Assembly (NCBI RefSeq): GCF_000756305.1
Contig: NZ_JRFE01000023.1
Location: forward strand, 33,222-97,221
DNA from: Myxosarcina sp. GI1
GTDB lineage: Bacteria; Cyanobacteriota; Cyanobacteriia; Cyanobacteriales; Xenococcaceae
DNA length: 64,000 nt
Direction of reading: 5' to 3'
Position numbers and translations under genes: made by a program. Every line of letters starts with the position of its first letter. Within the stretch, counting starts at the first letter, position 1. Shown here one piece after another: positions 14,516-24,790 of the stretch. The notes beneath the pieces are model-generated. The model made no database searches. It saw only the letters and a program-made list of their open reading frames with translations, and was not told the origin of the DNA.

Positions 14516-15403
14516 GTGCGACTCGTTTAGTGCGAAAGTACTATTTATAGTATATAAGCACTAGCATGGTATGACTAAATGTTAAGTATTTAATAATTCT
14601 TAACAGGTCAAATAAAACGCTATTTATTACGTTTTTGAACCATGACAACTAAATACTTCGTATAGGTGAGATGTCCCATATTTATATGGTCGCTAAATAC
14701 CAATAAAAGCATAATCATCAAGTCCTATCTCTCAGGTGTTGGAGATGAAAGCATAACCCCTACGGTAGAGAATGGTCATCAATCCGTAAAGCGGGGTTAA
14801 ACGGGGCTATGACTGGTAGTCTGAACTAGTTACCCTCTAGCAAGAATCCTATGGATAGAGCGTTCGCTCGAAGTACCAGAACCATCGTCACGGGTACACG
14901 GCTAAATCAGTACTGATAAGCCATAGCCAAAAGGCGACATTGCAAATTGTTAGTTATATGTACCTTGCATATAACTCAATACCAACAAGCAATCGGTGGA
15001 AAGGTTAAAGTCCCAAGCATCGTGACTTCTAAACAGCCAAATCATGACTGATAGGCTGTAAACAAAAATGTTAAACCTACAAAAAATTACTTTGATACTC
15101 GAGTATATCAAAGTCAACACCAATAGTAGGCGGTGTAAAGACACATCCTAAAGGTTCATACCAACGAAGTATTTGGAACGAGGAAACCCTTCTTACAACT
15201 CTCAAGGAAAGGTCGAACCCCTTGAGTAGTCAACCAAGACGCAATATCTCGGATTTATGAGGTTGTAGAAGGAGTAGGATTCGGCAAGAAGCAAATGCCC
15301 TAACTCGATTCAACGAGTAATGCTAGTGATAGATGGTGTAATGCCAGGGATACGCCCACGTGCCGACTTTAATTAGGTAGGAAAAGAACTAGTAGCAATA
15401 AAT

Positions 15404-17221
15404 ATGTCTAATACACATCCAATACCCAAATTGAATAGTGTGGAATGGAACGAGATTAACTGGCGTAAAGTCGAAAAATCGGTGTTCAAGTTGCAAAAGC
15501 GCATTTTCCAAGCCAGCAAAACTGACAATGTTAGAAAGTTAAGACGGTTACAAAAAACCCTTCTAAACTCTTACTATGCCAAACTATTAGCGGTCAGACG
15601 AATTACCCAAGATAACAGTGGCAAGAAGACAGCAGGTGTTGACGGAGTAAAATCAATAACCCCCAAGCAACGCCTCAACCTTGTCCAATCAATGAAGTTG
15701 AGCAAAAAATCCAAATCGGTCAGACGAGTATGGATTCCTAAAGCCAACGGAAAAGAACGACCTCTTGGAATCCCAGTAATGCACGATAGAGCAGTCCAAG
15801 CTCTAGTTAAGGCAGCACTAGAACCAGAATGGGAGGCAAAATTCGAGCCAAATAGCTACGGATTCCGACCAGGAAAAAGCTGCCATGATGCTATTCAAAG
15901 CATCTTCAACCAAATTAGGTATAAAACTAAATTTGTACTAGATGCCGATATTAGTAAGTGCTTTGACCGCATAAATCACACCAAACTTCTAAAAAAGGTA
16001 AACACCTTTCCAAAAATAAGAGGACAAATTAGGGCATGGCTAAAAGCGGGAATTCTAGACAACGGGAAAATTATATTCCCTGAAACTGGAAGCCCCCAAG
16101 GTGGAGTTATTAGCCCACTATTAGCCAACATCGCCTTACACGGAATGGAACAAGAAGTAAAAGAATACGCCGCTACTTGGAAGGGGAACAAACGGGATAA
16201 TATGGATTCCTTATCCCTTATCAGATACGCGGATGATTTTCTGATACTGCACAAAGACCTGAACGTAGTCCAGACTTGCAGAAGGATATTAGAAGAATGG
16301 CTGTCCGACATCGGATTAGAACTAAACCAAGAAAAAACCAAAATTAAGCATACTCTTAACGAATATGAGAGAGAAAAACCAGGGTTCGATTTCTTAGGGT
16401 TCAACATCAGACAATACCCAGTTGGTAAACACCAATCAGGTAAGGACACAACAGGCAAAAAGTTAGGATTCAAAACGATAATCAAACCATCAAAAGAAAA
16501 AGTCACCAAACACTACCGCAAACTAGCAGATATAGTGGATGCCCATAAAGCTTCTCCACAACACGTACTAATTTTAAAATTAGCCCCTATTATTAGAGGA
16601 TGGTGTAACTACTACAAAACGGTATGTTCCAAAGACATTTTCGCCAAAGTATACAGTTTATTATTCCGTAAACTACTAAGATGGGGAATTCGCAGACATC
16701 CTAACAAACCAAAGAGCTACAGCATAAATAAATACTGGACTAGTAATAAATTGGACAACTGGACATTCGGATGCAGCAAGGAAGGAATTAAATACGTTCT
16801 CCCTCAGCATCGAAATACAGCTATTACTCGTTATACAAAAGTCAAAGGTGATGCTAGCCCCTACGATGGAAACTCAACGTATTGGGCAACGAGAATGGGT
16901 AAACACCCAGAAATCAAAGCCTCACTAGCAAGACTACTTAAAAAGCAAAAGGGTAAATGCAACCACTGTGGATTAACTTTCAAACCTGAAGATAGAATCG
17001 AACGCGACCATATTACCGCCACTAAAGCTGGTGGTAAAAATATAATCGATAATATACAGGTATTACACAAACACTGTCACGATGTGAAGACTAAAAAGGA
17101 TTTACAGGCAATTAAACGTCATAAAATCCGCAAAGGATGGAACAAAGTCTATAAACAATTTCAAGAACAATTTGACAAGACAGATTGGATTTGGAGTGAA
17201 GACTTACCTACCTTAGTCTGA
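15404..17221 (+). CDS. Group II intron reverse transcriptase/maturase with HNH endonuclease
   Basis: 605 residues, complete. Reverse-transcriptase blocks in order: GKKTAGVDGV (RT0), RRVWIPKANGKERPLGIP, EPNSYGFRPGKSCHDAI, DADISKCFDRINH, GSPQGGVISPLLANIAL, and the active-site YADD in LIRYADDFLILH. The maturase X domain follows (APIIRGWCNYYKTV). The C-terminus is an HNH endonuclease with CNHCG, ERDHI and LHKHCHDVKTKKD, giving two Zn-binding Cys/His pairs. It is required for splicing and retrohoming of its host intron. Start ATG 15404 lies in intron domain IV; the stop is 32 bp before domain V. Confidence 0.96.
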   Translation: MSNTHPIPKLNSVEWNEINWRKVEKSVFKLQKRIFQASKTDNVRKLRRLQKTLLNSYYAKLLAVRRITQDNSGKKTAGVDGVKSITPKQRLNLVQSMKLSKKSKSVRRVWIPKANGKERPLGIPVMHDRAVQALVKAALEPEWEAKFEPNSYGFRPGKSCHDAIQSIFNQIRYKTKFVLDADISKCFDRINHTKLLKKVNTFPKIRGQIRAWLKAGILDNGKIIFPETGSPQGGVISPLLANIALHGMEQEVKEYAATWKGNKRDNMDSLSLIRYADDFLILHKDLNVVQTCRRILEEWLSDIGLELNQEKTKIKHTLNEYEREKPGFDFLGFNIRQYPVGKHQSGKDTTGKKLGFKTIIKPSKEKVTKHYRKLADIVDAHKASPQHVLILKLAPIIRGWCNYYKTVCSKDIFAKVYSLLFRKLLRWGIRRHPNKPKSYSINKYWTSNKLDNWTFGCSKEGIKYVLPQHRNTAITRYTKVKGDASPYDGNSTYWATRMGKHPEIKASLARLLKKQKGKCNHCGLTFKPEDRIERDHITATKAGGKNIIDNIQVLHKHCHDVKTKKDLQAIKRHKIRKGWNKVYKQFQEQFDKTDWIWSEDLPTLV

Positions 17222-17253
17222 ATGGTACACATAACAAGTGCCTAATTAGAGAG

Positions 17254-17288
17254 GAGCCGTATGAGATGAAAATCTCACGTACGGTTCT
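17254..17288 (+). ncRNA. Group II intron domain V of the dapL intron
   Basis: 35-nt hairpin: 5' strand GAGCCGTATGAG, tetraloop region around GAAA, 3' strand CTCACGTACGGTTCT with the two-base bulge. It contains the AGC catalytic triad near the 5' end. This matches the consensus domain V of bacterial group II introns almost base for base and confirms that the ribozyme core is intact. Confidence 0.95.
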
Positions 17289-17328
17289 GAAGACGAGTCG
17301 CTTCGGTGACGAAGTGGCTTAGTTTAAC

Positions 17329-18378: not shown

Positions 18379-18424
18379 CCTAGTTGTTATCTAAGCTAGA
18401 GAGTCGCCTCTCTAACTCGACTAC

Positions 18425-18459
18425 AGAACGCAGCATGAGAGTTTCCCCTCACTGCGCTC
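18425..18459 (-). ncRNA. Group II intron domain V of the outer twintron intron
   Basis: On the minus strand the hairpin begins GAGCGCAGTGAG, has a GGAAAC loop region and closes with CTCTCATGCTGCGTTCT. It keeps the AGC triad and 2-nt bulge, but the lower stem differs from the common GCCGTA/TACGGT pair by compensatory changes (GCGCAG / CTGCGT). Domain VI follows to 18386. Confidence 0.88.
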
Positions 18460-18478
18460 CTCAATGAGATGATTCTTG

Positions 18479-19514
18479 TCATGAATACTTCTGTTTCTGC
18501 CATTCAAGGTAATCTTGTCGGCTTTTATTGTCGTGGCAATGTCGATGTAGTAGTTGAAGGTTTTTGTATGTGTCTTTCCCACCCAAGCTTATCGGTTTGA
18601 TATGGTCTACCTCTAAGATGTCTTGGTTTGTGAATGACAGTTTACATATCGTGCATTTTGCCTTTTGCCTCTTGAGTAAGATTCTTACTCTGATAGGGGT
18701 TTCAGGGTATGCGCTTAACCTTTGACTCCAATATACAAAATCCCCATCGTAAGGAGATTTTACTCCTCTTACTTTGATATGTCGGATTATTTTAGTGTCC
18801 GAGTGATTTATCAATTTATAGGTGATTTTGCCTTCGTGGGTGTTGGAGAATATCCAATTACGGTTATCAATAGGTTTCCAATATTTATTCTTCACCCATT
18901 TTTTTCCTTTATTTGGATGTCTTCTCTTAGCCCATCTTCTGAGTTTTTGATATGTTAGGTGGTCTAAAAGTTTAAATGTTTCACTACTAATAACGCCTTT
19001 GTAGTAATTACACCATCCTCTAATGATTGGGTTTAGTAATCCGATTATTTTATCGGGTTTAGAAGCTCGATGTTTATCGATAACCTCTTCAATCTTTACT
19101 AGATGGTTTTTAATACTATTTTTAGATGGTGTTATTCTTGTCTTGAAACCCAGAGGTATTTTGTGTCCATTCACTCCTGATTTATATTTTCCAACTTTGT
19201 ATTGTTGGATGTGGAAGCCGAGGAACTCAAATCCTATGTTTCCTTTATGTTCTTCAAGAGTGTGACTTATTCGAGTTTTTTCTGGTTTAAGTTCTAGTCC
19301 CATATCTTTTAGCCATGTTTCTATTAGAGACTTACAACGTTCTATGACTTCTATTTCCTTGTGAAGGACTACAAAATCATCGGCATAGCGGATGATATTT
19401 GGTGTTGGGCTATCCCATCGCTTACCGTCTTTACGACCTTGTCTACGTGGGAACGACTTTTTAATCAAGTCTTCCAGACCGTGTAAAGCGATATTGGCGA
19501 GTAATGGGGAAATA
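18479..19514 (-). pseudogene. Outer-intron maturase, C-terminal part (exon 2)
   Basis: After removal of the inner intron this segment resumes with ISPLLANIALHGLED, then IIRYADDFVVLH (RT active site), LNPIIRGWCNYYKGV (domain X) and the HNH region CTICKLS, LEVDHIKPISLGG, LHRHCHDNKSRQD. It is close to the maturase of the dapL intron. The frame also extends upstream to 19540 into inner-intron sequence, which is not part of the maturase. Joined to 21896-22587 it gives 1728 nt, exactly 576 codons. Because of the split and the amber codon near the start, I class it as a broken or splicing-dependent gene. Confidence 0.9.
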
Positions 19515-19575
19515 GAGTAGGCACAAAGCGCACTTTCCAATCTTGCGATTGATGTGTTTCTTCATACCTCTCTCC

Positions 19576-19609
19576 AAACCGTACGTGACAATTTCTCGTC
19601 ATACGGCTT
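19576..19609 (-). ncRNA. Group II intron domain V of the inner intron
   Basis: 34-nt hairpin on the minus strand: AAGCCGTATGACGAG, a GAAA-type loop, then TTGTCACGTACGGTTT. Contains the AGC triad and conserved bulge. Domain VI lies between 19515 and 19575. Confidence 0.92.
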
Positions 19610-19619
19610 TCCATCATTG

Positions 19620-21281
19620 TTACCTCCGACCAAACGAGGGTGTTAAGGCATGACAAGAGCGACATAGTAGCTGAAGATTATCTTCAGTGTCTTTACCCTT
19701 GCTTTTGCGCGGTATGATGTGGTGCAGGTCTAGTTTTCCTAGTGCGCCACAACATTCGCATTTTGCGCCCCTCTCAGCTTTAATTTTCTCTTTGAGTTCG
19801 CGCCATGTGACGTTCTCGGCATTTCCCATCCAGATTATTTGGGATAAAGGTATTTCTGGCTGTGCTGCTGATAATGTTCCAAACCCTTCTAAATAAGGGT
19901 TTTCTGGTGAACGAGAACGGTATTTCTTTAGGGGTAAATCGCTCATCCTATAAAGAAAAAGGTGATTATCCCCGTTGAGTACACCAAAGTTCCATCTCTT
20001 CCCGTTCTCACGGAGTTTGAATCTATCTAGTACTTTTCGTTTGGATACTTTATGCCGTTTACTTAACCAGAGAAACAGCCTTTCGTTAACCCAGAAGTCT
20101 AGATCTTTGGCTAATTTCTTGGTGTTAGTATGGCGATAGTAATTAATCCATCCTCTGAGTACTGCGTTTAAAGCTGAGATTTTGAGCAATGGTGAATCTT
20201 GAAACCACTTGCGTCGCGTCATCTCTTTAATCTTGAGCTTCAACTTTTTAATGTTTTCCTGGGCTGGAGTGACCAGCATTTTAGGTCGGTCATTAGATTT
20301 TACGTATCTTTGAACGTGAAAACCTAAAAAGTCAAAACCTTGATTTACATGAGTTATGTGCGTTTTTTCTGGTGAAAGTTCGAGCTTTAGTTCTTTCCAG
20401 AGGAAGGCTTGAAACTCTTCTTTTAGCCTGATGGCTTCTGCTTTCCCACCGTTGGTAAGTAGTAGCCAATCATCAGCATATCGAATCAGCGCACAGTTTC
20501 CCATGTGGTTTATTCGACGACGTTCTTTCTGTTTGCGGTGAAGATTGCCGTATTTGTTCCACCAGTAGAGGTCTAGCTGATGTAAGTAGATGTTCGCCAA
20601 AATTGGCGAGCAGATTGCACCCTGCGGTGTTCCCGTTTCGGTGCGTTTGAACAAACAACCTTCCATAATTCCCGCTTCAAGAAATCGTTCTATTAGTTTT
20701 AAGAACTTTTCATCAGAGATTCTTTGAGCCAGCAGTTTTATCAATATTTGATGGTGAATGCTGTCAAATGCTCCTTTGATATCCCCTTCGATAACCCAAT
20801 AGTATTTGTTGCGTCGGTTGATGTAGCTATCTAATCGGGCGATACAGTCCTGTGTTCTGCGTCCTGGTCGAAAACCGTTGGAGCAGTTCAAGAAGTCGCT
20901 TTCATAAATAGGTTCTAACACCATTTTGACAAGCATTTGTACTACTCGGTCTTTGATTGTAGGAATACCCAATGGGCGAGTTTTACCGTTAGACTTAGGA
21001 ATGTATATTCGACGAACGGGCATTGGGCGGAACTGTTTTTGACGCAGTTCGCTTTCAAGCTCTTTCACAAATTTAGACTTTGCTACCTCTGATTCTAGAG
21101 CCTTTTTGCTTATTCCATCGACTCCTGGTGTCTTAGACCCTTTATTTGAGAGAATTGTCTTTAGGACATCGGCAATCCAATCTCGACGGCAAATGAGCCG
21201 ATAGAGATGGTCAAATTGATGTTCCTTCTGGAACTTTGCTTTTATGGCGAGACTACGTTGGGTTTTGATGATATCGGACAT
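19620..21281 (-). CDS. Inner-intron reverse transcriptase/maturase with HNH endonuclease
   Basis: 553 residues, complete. Order of motifs: GSKTPGVDGI (RT0), RRIYIPKSNGKTRPLGIPTIKDR, CSNGFRPGRRTQDCI, EGDIKGAFDSIHH, GTPQGAICSPILANIYLHQLD, and YADD in LIRYADDWLLLT. Domain X is AVLRGWINYYRHT. The C-terminus carries an HNH with CECCG, LDLHHIIPRKSKGKDTEDNLQLLCRSCH. The sequence is only distantly similar to the two CL-type maturases nearby (for example GAICSPILAN against GGVISPLLAN), so it entered independently. Start ATG 21281; the stop lies 11 bp before domain V. Probably needed to excise the inner intron. Confidence 0.95.
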   Translation of the reverse strand: MSDIIKTQRSLAIKAKFQKEHQFDHLYRLICRRDWIADVLKTILSNKGSKTPGVDGISKKALESEVAKSKFVKELESELRQKQFRPMPVRRIYIPKSNGKTRPLGIPTIKDRVVQMLVKMVLEPIYESDFLNCSNGFRPGRRTQDCIARLDSYINRRNKYYWVIEGDIKGAFDSIHHQILIKLLAQRISDEKFLKLIERFLEAGIMEGCLFKRTETGTPQGAICSPILANIYLHQLDLYWWNKYGNLHRKQKERRRINHMGNCALIRYADDWLLLTNGGKAEAIRLKEEFQAFLWKELKLELSPEKTHITHVNQGFDFLGFHVQRYVKSNDRPKMLVTPAQENIKKLKLKIKEMTRRKWFQDSPLLKISALNAVLRGWINYYRHTNTKKLAKDLDFWVNERLFLWLSKRHKVSKRKVLDRFKLRENGKRWNFGVLNGDNHLFLYRMSDLPLKKYRSRSPENPYLEGFGTLSAAQPEIPLSQIIWMGNAENVTWRELKEKIKAERGAKCECCGALGKLDLHHIIPRKSKGKDTEDNLQLLCRSCHALTPSFGRR

Positions 21282-21895
21282 ACTTCTTAGTCCTCTCTAC
21301 TTCCTATGTGTATCTCTAACAATGACTGCCATCCTTCGCCATGTACCAGACTATTTTCTGGCTCGGACTACTACGATGGCTCTGCCACGCAATAACTACT
21401 TCAGTTGCAGTTAACCCAGTCTGTGACCAGACCAGCTATTGCGCTTCCTACGTTCATACTTCGGTAAGTGGTTACATTTAACCGTGGGCTTCTTCTTTAC
21501 TCCGTAAGGATACAGACCTAGTATCCCCGACATCAGTTGATAATTTGTACCCTTATAATTAGAGCAATTTGAACCGCGTCGAAAGTTCTTTTCAGTCAAA
21601 CGAGTGCAACATTGACTTACCTGATGTCTCACGCCATCTCTGTTGTTTAGCGGCGTGTCCAAGGTGTAGGAGCGTCGGACGAAGATTCCTTTCGTAGCCA
21701 TAGTTAAATTCAGGCTCGAAGCCTCATACTGTAACAGAGTGCCAGTATTTTGCCCCTTGTTCCCCAGGCTTCAAACAGGTTTTTACTCATTGTCCCCTGC
21801 CTGCTGGGTCAGCCTTAGTACATTAGGGAATGTACTATCTCTTGGTAGTTTTCACTCTCCTTGAGCATTACCAAAGTACGCTTCGCAGCGCACAC

Positions 21896-22587
21896 ACACC
21901 TCCTTGAGGTGTTCCTTCGTTTGTTGGAAATAGGTCGCCTTTATCTATCACCCCTGCTTTTAGCCAAGCTTTTACTTGTCTATTTATGGTAGGGGATGCG
22001 TTTAATTTCTCTAATAGTTTTTGATGGTCAATTTTGTCAAAACATTTAGATATATCTGCATCTAGGACGTATTTTGCTTTCTGCTTTAACGTTAAATAGA
22101 TTGCTCCTATTGCGTCGTGGCATGAGCGTCCAGGTCTGAATCCGTATGAATTAGGTTCAAATTTGGCTTCCCATTCTGGCTCGATTGCCATTTTTACCAG
22201 AGCTTGTTTAGCCCTGTCATTCATGGTGGGTATGCCCAAGGGTCGTTTTTCTGTTTTTCCTGGTTTTGGTATCCAAATTCTTCGAGTAGGCTTTGATTTA
22301 TTGCCTAACTTGAGATTTTCTACCAATTCCCTTCTTTCTCTGGGTTTTAGTGATTTAACACCATCTACTCCAGCCGTTTTCTTCCCTTGATTATCCTGCG
22401 TTACTTTCCTAACTGCGATTGCTTTGCTCGACCATGAGCTAATCAGAAGTTTTTGAAGTCTGCGAACTACTTTGACATCTCCACGTTCAGAAGCTTGATA
22501 AATTCTTTTTTGAAGCTTGAATACTTTCTTCTCTAGCTGATGCCAGGGAATAGTATTCTATTCATACATCGGTTTTGCCGTGTTCAT
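21896..22587 (-). pseudogene. Outer-intron maturase, N-terminal part (exon 1) with amber codon 10
   Basis: From ATG 22587 the frame reads MNTAKPMYE, then TAG (22558-22560), then NTIPWHQLEKKVFKLQKRIYQ, GKKTAGVDGVKSL, RRIWIPKPG, EPNSYGFRPGRSCHDAI, DADISKCFDKIDH and EGTPQGGV, where the inner intron begins. The dapL-intron maturase aligns well and has VEWNEINWRKVEK here, so the TAG most likely replaces a TGG (Trp). Apart from this codon no stop interrupts 692 nt. A downstream TTG at 22326 opens the longest uninterrupted frame but lacks RT0. The maturase is thus nonsense-mutated unless read through. Confidence 0.88.
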
Positions 22588-23236
22588 GACCTTACTTTTA
22601 CTACAGACTTTATCTTTCATCTCACCGTGAGTCCGTCAGCATATCTTGGGCATTACTCCAAGCATTCGCTTCTGACTCTATCCTTCCCTGATAAGGCTTG
22701 CGCTGGTTACTACTCAGCTTATTTGACCAAGCTGAGAGCCTTAAGAGGGTTATACCGTTCCTAAGATTCGTTGGTTTCTAACTTTAGAGTCTTTCTATTC
22801 GCCGAAGGCTGTTAGTTGGATGCCAAGAAACAAGGATCGATCTGTTTCTCTTTTGATAAGCAAAGATCGACTGCTTATCCTTTAGCCTTGTGAACTTTTG
22901 TTCCCAGCCTGACAACCTGTTTTGGCTGGTTTGGTATTACGACGATTCAAACGAAAGTTCGTCTCCTACTCATAGTTAGCTGCTTCGATGGGATTCTCAA
23001 TCAGGTTTTGAGTTACCACCTTTTAACATCCCGCTTCATCAATTAAAGTTACCACCTTTAGTTGATGGGGATGCGCTTTCACCCTTGCATCTAGGGGGAT
23101 GGACTTGGTTATTAACCTCACCATCACGAACCTTAAGTTGTCTAATTATTAATTTTTATTACTTTCGTAATATTCCTTAACAATTAGCAGTCTATCCTTG
23201 AGTATTAAATACTCATTTCAGACTAACGGTTCGCAC
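22588..23236 (-). ncRNA. 5' ribozyme domains of the outer intron
   Basis: About 650 bp upstream of the maturase start, on the minus strand, holding domain I and probably II-III. Starts GTGCGAACCGTTAG. Short frames here (for example 22540-22764 on the plus strand) are structural RNA sequence and not genes. Confidence 0.75.
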
Positions 23237-23419: not shown

Positions 23420-24790
23420 ATGCGTAAGTTATATCTTTTTATCCTTCCCTTGCTAGTTATTTTCTATAGTTGTAAAACCCCAGAAAACGCCCAACCAGTT
23501 GAAGAAAAACCAGTAGAACCCGCCAACATAGAACAAGCCAGACCAGTCGCAGAGTATCTCGACTCGCTTGGTGTTGCCACTCATATTGGTTTTGCCAGAC
23601 TACCATACAATCAAAATTTTGATGAAATTATCAAACCTCGCCTTCAGGAATTAGGTATAAAGCATATTAGAACCGATCTTAGCGGACAAAAATTTTACTT
23701 TCAGCACATGAAAGAGCTAGGGGCAATGGGGATTAAAGCCAATGTGGTTACTAGACCACAGACTGGTATGACTTTGGATGCCCTAATGAAAAATCTTAAA
23801 ACTTTGGGAGATATGGCAATCTCTGTAGAAGGTCCTAACGAACAAGATGGTAGTCAAAATACAGGAAAAGGTAAACCAATATATCAAGGCAAATTTTATC
23901 CTGAAGGTCTAGAGTTATTTCAAAATAAGCTCTATGAAACTATAAATTCAGACTCAGAGACTCAAGATATAAAGGTAGTAGCACCATCATTTTTTACCAA
24001 AAATATCACTGAAGCATACTCTATGCTTGGTAAACTAAAATGCGATCTAAATAATATTCATAGCTATCCTGCTGGTCGCGGTATGACAACTAGAGGATTG
24101 GATACGATGGGTGGTGCTTTAAACAACGCTCTGGAATTTTGTGGAGAGGATAAGCCAATTATTGCTACAGAGACTGGCTATCACAATGCAATCTATGTCA
24201 GAGGTAAAAATCATAATGATGAAAAGTCGGCTGGTACTGGTGTTTCTGAAGCAGCAGCAGGAAAGTATATCAATCGCCTGTTTTTAAACTATTTCAACAG
24301 AAACATCGAGCGTACCTATATTTACGAACTTATCGACAAAAATCCAGACCCGTCTTTAAGCGAAACAAAAAATCACTGGGGACTATTGCGTAATGATGGT
24401 TCGCGCAAACCAAGCTTTATTGCCTTGCGTAATGCGATCGCCATACTCAGCGAAGACAATACTACTAGTACCGAACCAATAAACAATAAACTTGGCTTTA
24501 ACCTATCGGGAAATACAGCCAATGTCAGACACACTCTATTGCAAAAACAAGATGGTAGATTTTATCTGGCACTGTGGCAAGAAGTCGATTCATACGATCG
24601 CGTTCGGCTACAGGACATTGCGGTAGAACCCGTAAACTTACAGCTATTTATTGATGAAGATGTCAGGGAAGTAAATTTTTACGATCCCCTACAGCAAAGA
24701 AATGCCATTAAGCAAGTTACAGGCGAAAACTCTTTAGAAGTTGCAGTGAGCGATCGCCCGATATTTCTCGAAATTGTTATCGATAATTAA
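23420..24790 (+). CDS. Lipoprotein with glycoside-hydrolase-like TIM barrel
   Basis: 456 residues. Signal MRKLYLFILPLLVIFYSC is a type II signal with lipidated Cys18. The body looks like a clan A (beta/alpha)8 glycosidase: HIRTDLSGQKFYF early, VEGPNEQDGS with a candidate acid/base Glu in the N-E pair, and PIIATETGYHNA with a candidate nucleophile Glu at the next strand. A C-terminal beta domain (about residues 355-456) carries FYLALWQEVDSYDRV, as in GH39/GH5-like enzymes. Predicted cell-surface or periplasmic glycosidase; the exact family and substrate are not assignable. It starts 184 bp from the 5' end of the twintron. Confidence 0.7.
   Translation: MRKLYLFILPLLVIFYSCKTPENAQPVEEKPVEPANIEQARPVAEYLDSLGVATHIGFARLPYNQNFDEIIKPRLQELGIKHIRTDLSGQKFYFQHMKELGAMGIKANVVTRPQTGMTLDALMKNLKTLGDMAISVEGPNEQDGSQNTGKGKPIYQGKFYPEGLELFQNKLYETINSDSETQDIKVVAPSFFTKNITEAYSMLGKLKCDLNNIHSYPAGRGMTTRGLDTMGGALNNALEFCGEDKPIIATETGYHNAIYVRGKNHNDEKSAGTGVSEAAAGKYINRLFLNYFNRNIERTYIYELIDKNPDPSLSETKNHWGLLRNDGSRKPSFIALRNAIAILSEDNTTSTEPINNKLGFNLSGNTANVRHTLLQKQDGRFYLALWQEVDSYDRVRLQDIAVEPVNLQLFIDEDVREVNFYDPLQQRNAIKQVTGENSLEVAVSDRPIFLEIVIDN

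Follow-up and report, generated by a model that had tools for sequence, protein, structure and literature searches.

A group II intron nested in the maturase gene of another group II intron in Myxosarcina sp. GI1, and a family of relatives that probably specialises in such genes

Nesting of one group II intron within another has been described before. F3 introns (TeI3a-e) lie inside F1 introns in Thermosynechococcus elongatus (Mohr et al. 2010, PMC2882425), and the published excerpts state that identical inner introns in diverged outer introns were taken as recent independent insertions (PMC2882425). Nested introns of Methanosarcina acetivorans were attributed to repeated site-specific homing into other group II introns, according to the available portions of two papers (PMC4424553, PMC2882425). 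The Trichodesmium erythraeum twintron, as excerpted, consists of two nested group II introns that each encode an intron-encoded protein (IEP), and its sequential splicing was shown (Pfreundt and Hess 2015, PMC4649490). One inner intron, mat1f of the Porphyridium purpureum plastid, is found in two different outer introns in the text available (PMC4476101). Here we describe a twintron in a 64,000-nucleotide stretch of the cyanobacterium Myxosarcina sp. GI1 (the window; contig NZ_JRFE01000023.1, positions 33,222 to 97,221), where an inner group II intron (19512..21893, minus strand) interrupts the maturase gene of an outer CL-like group II intron (18386..23236, minus strand). The inner element is very probably a mobile group II intron encoding its own reverse transcriptase (RT), one of a family specialised on the maturase genes of other group II introns.

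What is shared with T. elongatus is a set of identical inner introns that occupy a single conserved position within the RT open reading frame (ORF) of other introns. The T. elongatus inner introns, as far as the excerpts describe them, are ORF-less and mobilisable by the IEP of the outer intron, whereas the inner intron here encodes its own RT; their site lies between two start codons near the start of the RT ORF, so that the outer IEP is possible without splicing, whereas the site here is in the RT core. The inner intron here is also of another lineage, and its hosts span several maturase classes and genera. The Trichodesmium system, in the part of the paper available, is likewise cyanobacterial with an IEP in both nested introns, but its inner intron sits in domain I of the host rather than within the maturase ORF. 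The Porphyridium mat1f intron is of plastid origin and also occurs alone in atpB, and the accessible text describes no specialisation on an RT motif. Work by Dai and Zimmerly in 2003 reportedly concerns, by its title, homing into related introns. The Methanosarcina hosts are titled as related introns, whereas the hosts here are mostly of distant classes; that system may be closer than its title suggests. In the open-licence literature, as far as its excerpts reach, there was no report of a lineage that encodes an RT and targets the PQGG motif in maturases of several classes. Judged against those same excerpts, homing into the ORFs of other introns is known from Thermosynechococcus and Methanosarcina, and what appears to be new is an RT-encoding lineage on PQGG across classes. 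Members of this family look like parasites of parasites, and with them the homing of introns into introns, so far a matter of isolated cases, would extend to a whole lineage that has the RT core of other introns as its dedicated niche.

In its own genome (7.07 Mb in 76 contigs) the inner intron was present in five copies of 2382 nt each (GTGCGCTGCG...CCTACTCTAT in the window), with no more than 2 nt between any two, if an N in copy C10 is included. All five copies sit in group II maturase genes at the same codon (PQGGV|SPLLAN), and they occupy 5 of the 12 CL-type exon-1 matches of the genome. Distinct copies have no flanking sequence in common upstream of the intron (0 nt) and 2-11 nt downstream of it, and their outer exon-1 proteins are 64-76% identical. 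The exceptions are C1 and C50, which are the same over 1028 nt upstream and the 1530 nt available downstream, and C10, which has 917 nt upstream in common with these two and a different downstream side; the exon-1 proteins of C1, C10 and C50 are identical. The outer frame of C1 and C50 is open throughout (238 + 381 aa).

A contig scan detected 16 loci in other assemblies, with a best-segment protein identity of 55-92% (at least 66% in 14 of them), and three further loci were L070, on a complete Leptolyngbya boryana plasmid, and L082 and L083, on contigs of 6.3 and 4.5 Mb. Together with the five own copies these make up 24 family loci; L071-L074, L077 and L078 are repeats of named loci and add nothing to this count, while L075, L076, L081, L082 and L083 had no exact 200-mer tested in common with named loci. 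Flanking sequence was readable on at least one side at 22 of the 24 loci, with no intron end found for L060 and L062; L059, L063 and L064 were read on the 3' side only and L058 on the 5' side only. At 20 of the 22 readable loci, spread over 14 assemblies including our own, the intron was inserted after the first base of the codon following PQGG-(V/I/C/L/G). As far as each side could be read, the Ser-Pro codons began two bases past the intron, or one base past it in the window copy. The site is the conserved RT motif Pro-Gln-Gly-Gly-(Val/Ile)-X-Ser-Pro, entered after the first base of codon X.

Two genome searches for the family each scored three candidates per genome. With the inner IEP at E<=1e-100, only the own genome matched among 386 cyanobacterial genomes; at the order level with E<=1e-80, 11 of 388 genomes matched, the own genome included. 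Two relatives from the order-level search, L084 and L085, were distant (43% and 37% identity), and their neighbouring long ORFs were not RT-like. The insertion habit therefore seems to belong to a closer clade, the distant side being represented by L084 and L085 alone. The pattern PQGGV+GTGYG gave five matches in the own genome, none in 385 others and no control matches; as it needs Val and zero mismatch, it misses many family members. Four stretches with the pattern occurred in viral contigs, with no relative among them. One member, L057, comes from an assembly that bears the label Flavobacterium sp. SUN052, where its contig is 237 kb long; either contamination or transfer would account for it.

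Several points tell against a mobile and specialised family, besides those on target pairing given further below. The flanks of L054 and L061 contain no recognisable RT gene, with short PQG-like sequences preceding the intron. Of the 17 loci read on both sides, 11 have an outer ORF that is closed on at least one side (one of the 11, L061, not being in an RT gene). Copies C1 and C8 are near contig ends, the mixed outer maturases at C10, L056 and L057 may have arisen when repeats were misassembled, and the near-identity of the five own copies could come in part from gene conversion. At the three mixed loci (C10 being L040) the two halves of the outer maturase match different sequences or classes, a pattern that would result either from misassembly or from recombination between copies of the inner intron that they share.

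A fuller role for gene conversion, in which old insertions in several maturase genes were homogenised within the genome and there is little present mobility, is an alternative that we consider unlikely. Recombination could act on the 2.4 kb over which the copies are nearly identical, and the upstream-only sharing of C10 with C1 and C50 fits such exchange, as do the mixed-class outer introns of L056 and L057. On the other hand, these three loci are possibly misassemblies, no conversion tract reaches far into the flanks of distinct own copies, and homogenisation gives no account of how the intron first came to enter maturases of different classes in different genomes. A mobile family that targets maturase genes remains the better reading of these loci.

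The inner intron has the ends, the domains and the protein of a mobile RT-encoding group II intron. GTGYG was found at 15 of 15 aligned 5' ends and a terminal AT at 16 of 16 aligned 3' ends, and in the alignment domain VI has an unpaired branch-site A 7 nt before the 3' end. Domain V/VI (19512..19611, minus strand) matched the full Rfam model RF00029 with 65.6 bits. Domains I-III and the start of domain IV (21282..21893, minus strand) were delimited in a 13-sequence alignment, in which 147 conserved pairs were predicted in domains I-III and 70 of these showed compensatory changes on both sides, so that an absence of these domains, named by the earlier note as a ground for doubt, does not apply; the Rfam models of domains I-IV did not match the inner intron. 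The maturase (19620..21281, minus strand), which that note had also recognised along with its domain V, is 553 aa long and carries RT (YADD), maturase and endonuclease domains, with matches to TIGR04416 (NCBIfam, 4.4e-114), RVT_1, GIIM and HNH. Of 16 copies, including the five of the own genome, 15 encode it at full length. The ratio of nonsynonymous to synonymous substitution rates (dN/dS) ranged from 0.058 to 0.116 over 11 comparisons, in several of which dS was close to 1 or higher, a twelfth being saturated. These ratios indicate that the inner protein is under purifying selection. L083, whose inner gene is split, was excluded from the statistics on the IEP and the fold for that reason; there a further RT-coding insert divides the family's own maturase at about residue 152.

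The outer maturase gives a different picture. After removal of the inner intron its frame is restored at 6 of the 17 two-sided loci (C1 and C50, which are duplicates, L051, L052, L070 and L082) and not in the window. Among the other 11 loci, C10 and L083 are open to the joint and end early downstream of it, and the remainder, except L061, have stops or frame changes. In the window, canonical excision of the inner intron leaves the outer maturase frame-shifted, and codon 10 of its gene is an in-frame TAG (22560-22558; MNTAKPMYE-stop-NTIPW). Taken together, the frame shift and the TAG suggest that the outer intron here is likely a decaying host that would need maturase in trans. The single missing base may be a sequencing error in a T run. 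Outer-exon dN/dS was 0.08-0.19 in six of nine comparisons and saturated in the other three, which indicates that the outer genes evolved under constraint for most of their history.

We read the TAG as a nonsense mutation. Internal stops occurred in about 10 of 150 matches to outer exon 1, five of them TAG (counted by hand), and the idea that the outer N-terminus has a TAG that is conserved or recoded was dropped since internal stops are this few among relatives. A TAG is found at apparently the same Trp position in exon 1 of the window outer maturase and of L056.

The broken window maturase and the small number of open outer ORFs would also fit a dead fossil, in which both introns are inactive and the shared site records past activity. 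This appears quite improbable, given the full-length inner proteins, their low dN/dS and five near-identical copies in a single genome. Under the preferred reading of a mobile inner intron, an interrupted outer maturase would be made only after the inner intron splices out, and inner splicing controlling outer mobility is offered as a hypothesis for the copies with an open frame. The earlier note had proposed such control for the window copy, where it fails because the outer maturase is broken twice; there the splicing route to the outer maturase is probably dead.

The maturase genes entered are diverse. By exon-1 identity there is a CL-like group (at least 50%) and a second group formed by L049, L052 and L053 (48-62%); the L057 host has 33-41% identity to all others, and that of L082 has 38-52%, borderline to the CL-like group. 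The host of L064 reads as the family's own IEP, on the 3' side only and over 46 aa to the contig end. Hosts therefore span three to five classes of maturase, one of which is apparently that of the family itself. In L. boryana (AP018204, a complete plasmid) there is a three-level nest with the family member innermost and three matches to domain V/VI: at AP018204.1 2588-9200 (L070) the outermost RT gene is split by a CL intron at YGFRPG, and the maturase of that CL intron is split at PQGG. The plasmid of a second L. boryana strain (NZ_CP092420) has the inner gene at the same record coordinates, a comparison of gene position. Other introns, like the CL intron at YGFRPG in L070, may target RT genes too.

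This diversity bears on the possibility that the twintron was spread as a unit by outer introns which diverged later, the inner intron being a passenger. Whole-twintron copying does occur, as C1 and C50, with their identical surroundings, represent one twintron duplicated as a unit or in a larger segment. As a general account it is very unlikely: the other own outer exon-1 proteins have diverged to 64-76% identity around inner introns with no more than two differences, closely related inner introns occupy outer classes that share only about 40% identity (for the window and L049, 87% of nucleotides agree between the inner introns but 39% of amino acids between the outer exon-1 proteins), and L064 sits in an apparent IEP of its own family.

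At the window locus one intron lies wholly within the other, each with its own domain V/VI match to RF00029, and the two belong to different intron lineages, as the earlier note had said; its observation that the outer maturase ORF is split between TPQGGV and SPLLAN also stood. The placement of the inner ends had to be changed. The cuts given there, 21896 and 19514, imply an intron of 21895..19515, whereas the other copies and relatives place the ends at GTGCG (21893) and CTCTAT (19512). A cut at 19514 would strand the last three intron bases in the exon (TAT or CAT in 16 of 16 aligned 3' ends). The exon total of 1728 nt, an exact multiple of three, becomes 694 + 1033 = 1727 nt with the conserved ends, so that the frame shift named by that note as a ground for doubt is present in the window copy and absent from the six open loci. 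Splicing of the window intron at 21896/19514 into an intact outer maturase is scarcely credible, since the in-frame TPQGGVISPLLAN joint it would give depends on ends seen in none of the aligned relatives and leaves the TAG at codon 10 in place.

The 5' part of the outer maturase gene (21894..22587, minus strand) runs through the RT motifs to PQGGV plus one base and includes the TAG at codon 10; RVT_1 matched in its ORF 21868-22326 (E 2.9e-25). The 3' part (18479..19511, minus strand), frame-shifted relative to the 5' part at the conserved ends, covers SPLLAN, YADD, GIIM and HNH, with Pfam RVT_1, GIIM and HNH matches in ORF 18479-19540. Relative to a 605-aa paralogue the split is at about residue 235.

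The target would be recognised by base pairing between the intron and the codons of the RT motif. The sequence CACCUUG (21660..21666, minus strand) is invariant in 15 of 15 aligned introns and unpaired in the 13-intron covariation fold, while an alternative fold has two base pairs within it. For exon positions -13 to -7 it is the best 7-mer in domains I-III, with a mean of 6.25 of 7 pairs over 12 introns (runner-up 5.42), and among 294 exon offsets this one scores highest (the best scores average 4.44, with an sd of 0.45); L054 and L061 were excluded from the pairing statistics. In the window the target is CAAGGAG (21900..21906, minus strand) in the outer maturase gene, and CARGGNGG is common to 17 of 17 RT-gene targets read from the 5' side. 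CACCUUG as exon-binding site 2 (EBS2), predicted to pair with the Gln-Gly-Gly codons, is well supported by these comparisons.

The candidate for EBS1 is uncertain. The 6-mer GCACUC in a hairpin loop (21602..21607, minus strand), for which the case is weak and the register was picked by eye, gives a mean of 3.69 of 6 pairs with positions -6 to -1, a value that 1% of windows reach. Its own targets did no better than swapped ones (3.69 against 3.89, with 88% of shuffles at least as high), and a blind column scan put other windows above it (best 4.5 of 6). The sequence ACACGC beside EBS2 was ruled out as EBS1, as its bases form a covarying helix. A hairpin in the 5' exon (ACNCC/GGNGT), noted by eye, was rejected as a recognition signal since it is broken at PQGGI or PQGGL.

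In 13 intron-target pairs, pairing was found at codon positions 1 and 2 in 97 of 104 cells and at position 3 in 26 of 52. This contrast is partly built in, with positions 1 and 2 conserved and EBS2 invariant. As these codon positions are conserved anyway, the contrast describes the match and is no proof of selection for it. Since protein function fixes positions 1 and 2 of the motif codons, most maturase genes should offer the site. The intron RNA would then find its target by the invariant CACCUUG on the Gln-Gly-Gly codons, helped by a looser EBS1 pairing, and integration would be by retrohoming with the RT and HNH domains of the intron-encoded protein.

The family's own maturase has PQGA at this motif in 10 of the 14 distinct members in which it could be seen and PQGG in four (L056, L057, L070 and L082), the own copies being counted once. 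The change from PQGG to PQGA falls on position -6, which is G in 17 of 17 RT-gene targets read from the 5' side. Possibly, judging from this position, PQGA protects against self-insertion; it may equally be one inherited change. Overall pairing at the family's own site is 8-11 of 13, which is not below several real targets (7-11 of 13).

A bolder version of the preferred reading, to which we give only tentative credence, is a hyperparasitic lineage whose guide is matched to the codon-invariant bases of the RT motif, which invades nearly any maturase class, gates the mobility of its hosts by its own splicing, and is in part self-protected through PQGG to PQGA. The family as described makes several questions testable: how one selfish RNA parasitises another, whether the spread of a host intron is limited or regulated when its maturase depends on splicing, and whether pairing at codon positions 1 and 2 allows a group II intron to track conservation at the protein level.

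The outer intron has the 5' end GTGCGA and the 3' end GATAAC, set by motif and not by an empty site, and its domain V/VI is at 18389..18461 (minus strand; RF00029, 49.2 bits). It is intergenic, between dapL on one side and an ORF starting at 23420 on the other. The dapL gene (14516-17328, plus strand), which we take to encode LL-diaminopimelate aminotransferase, is itself interrupted by a further CL-like group II intron, whose maturase has 605 aa, and dapL would depend on splicing. Its first exon ends in GPEQG and the second restarts at YVWLRDKI. Elsewhere in the own genome, at C43 (locus L043, 6233-7528), 14 Rfam tRNA matches are packed on one strand.

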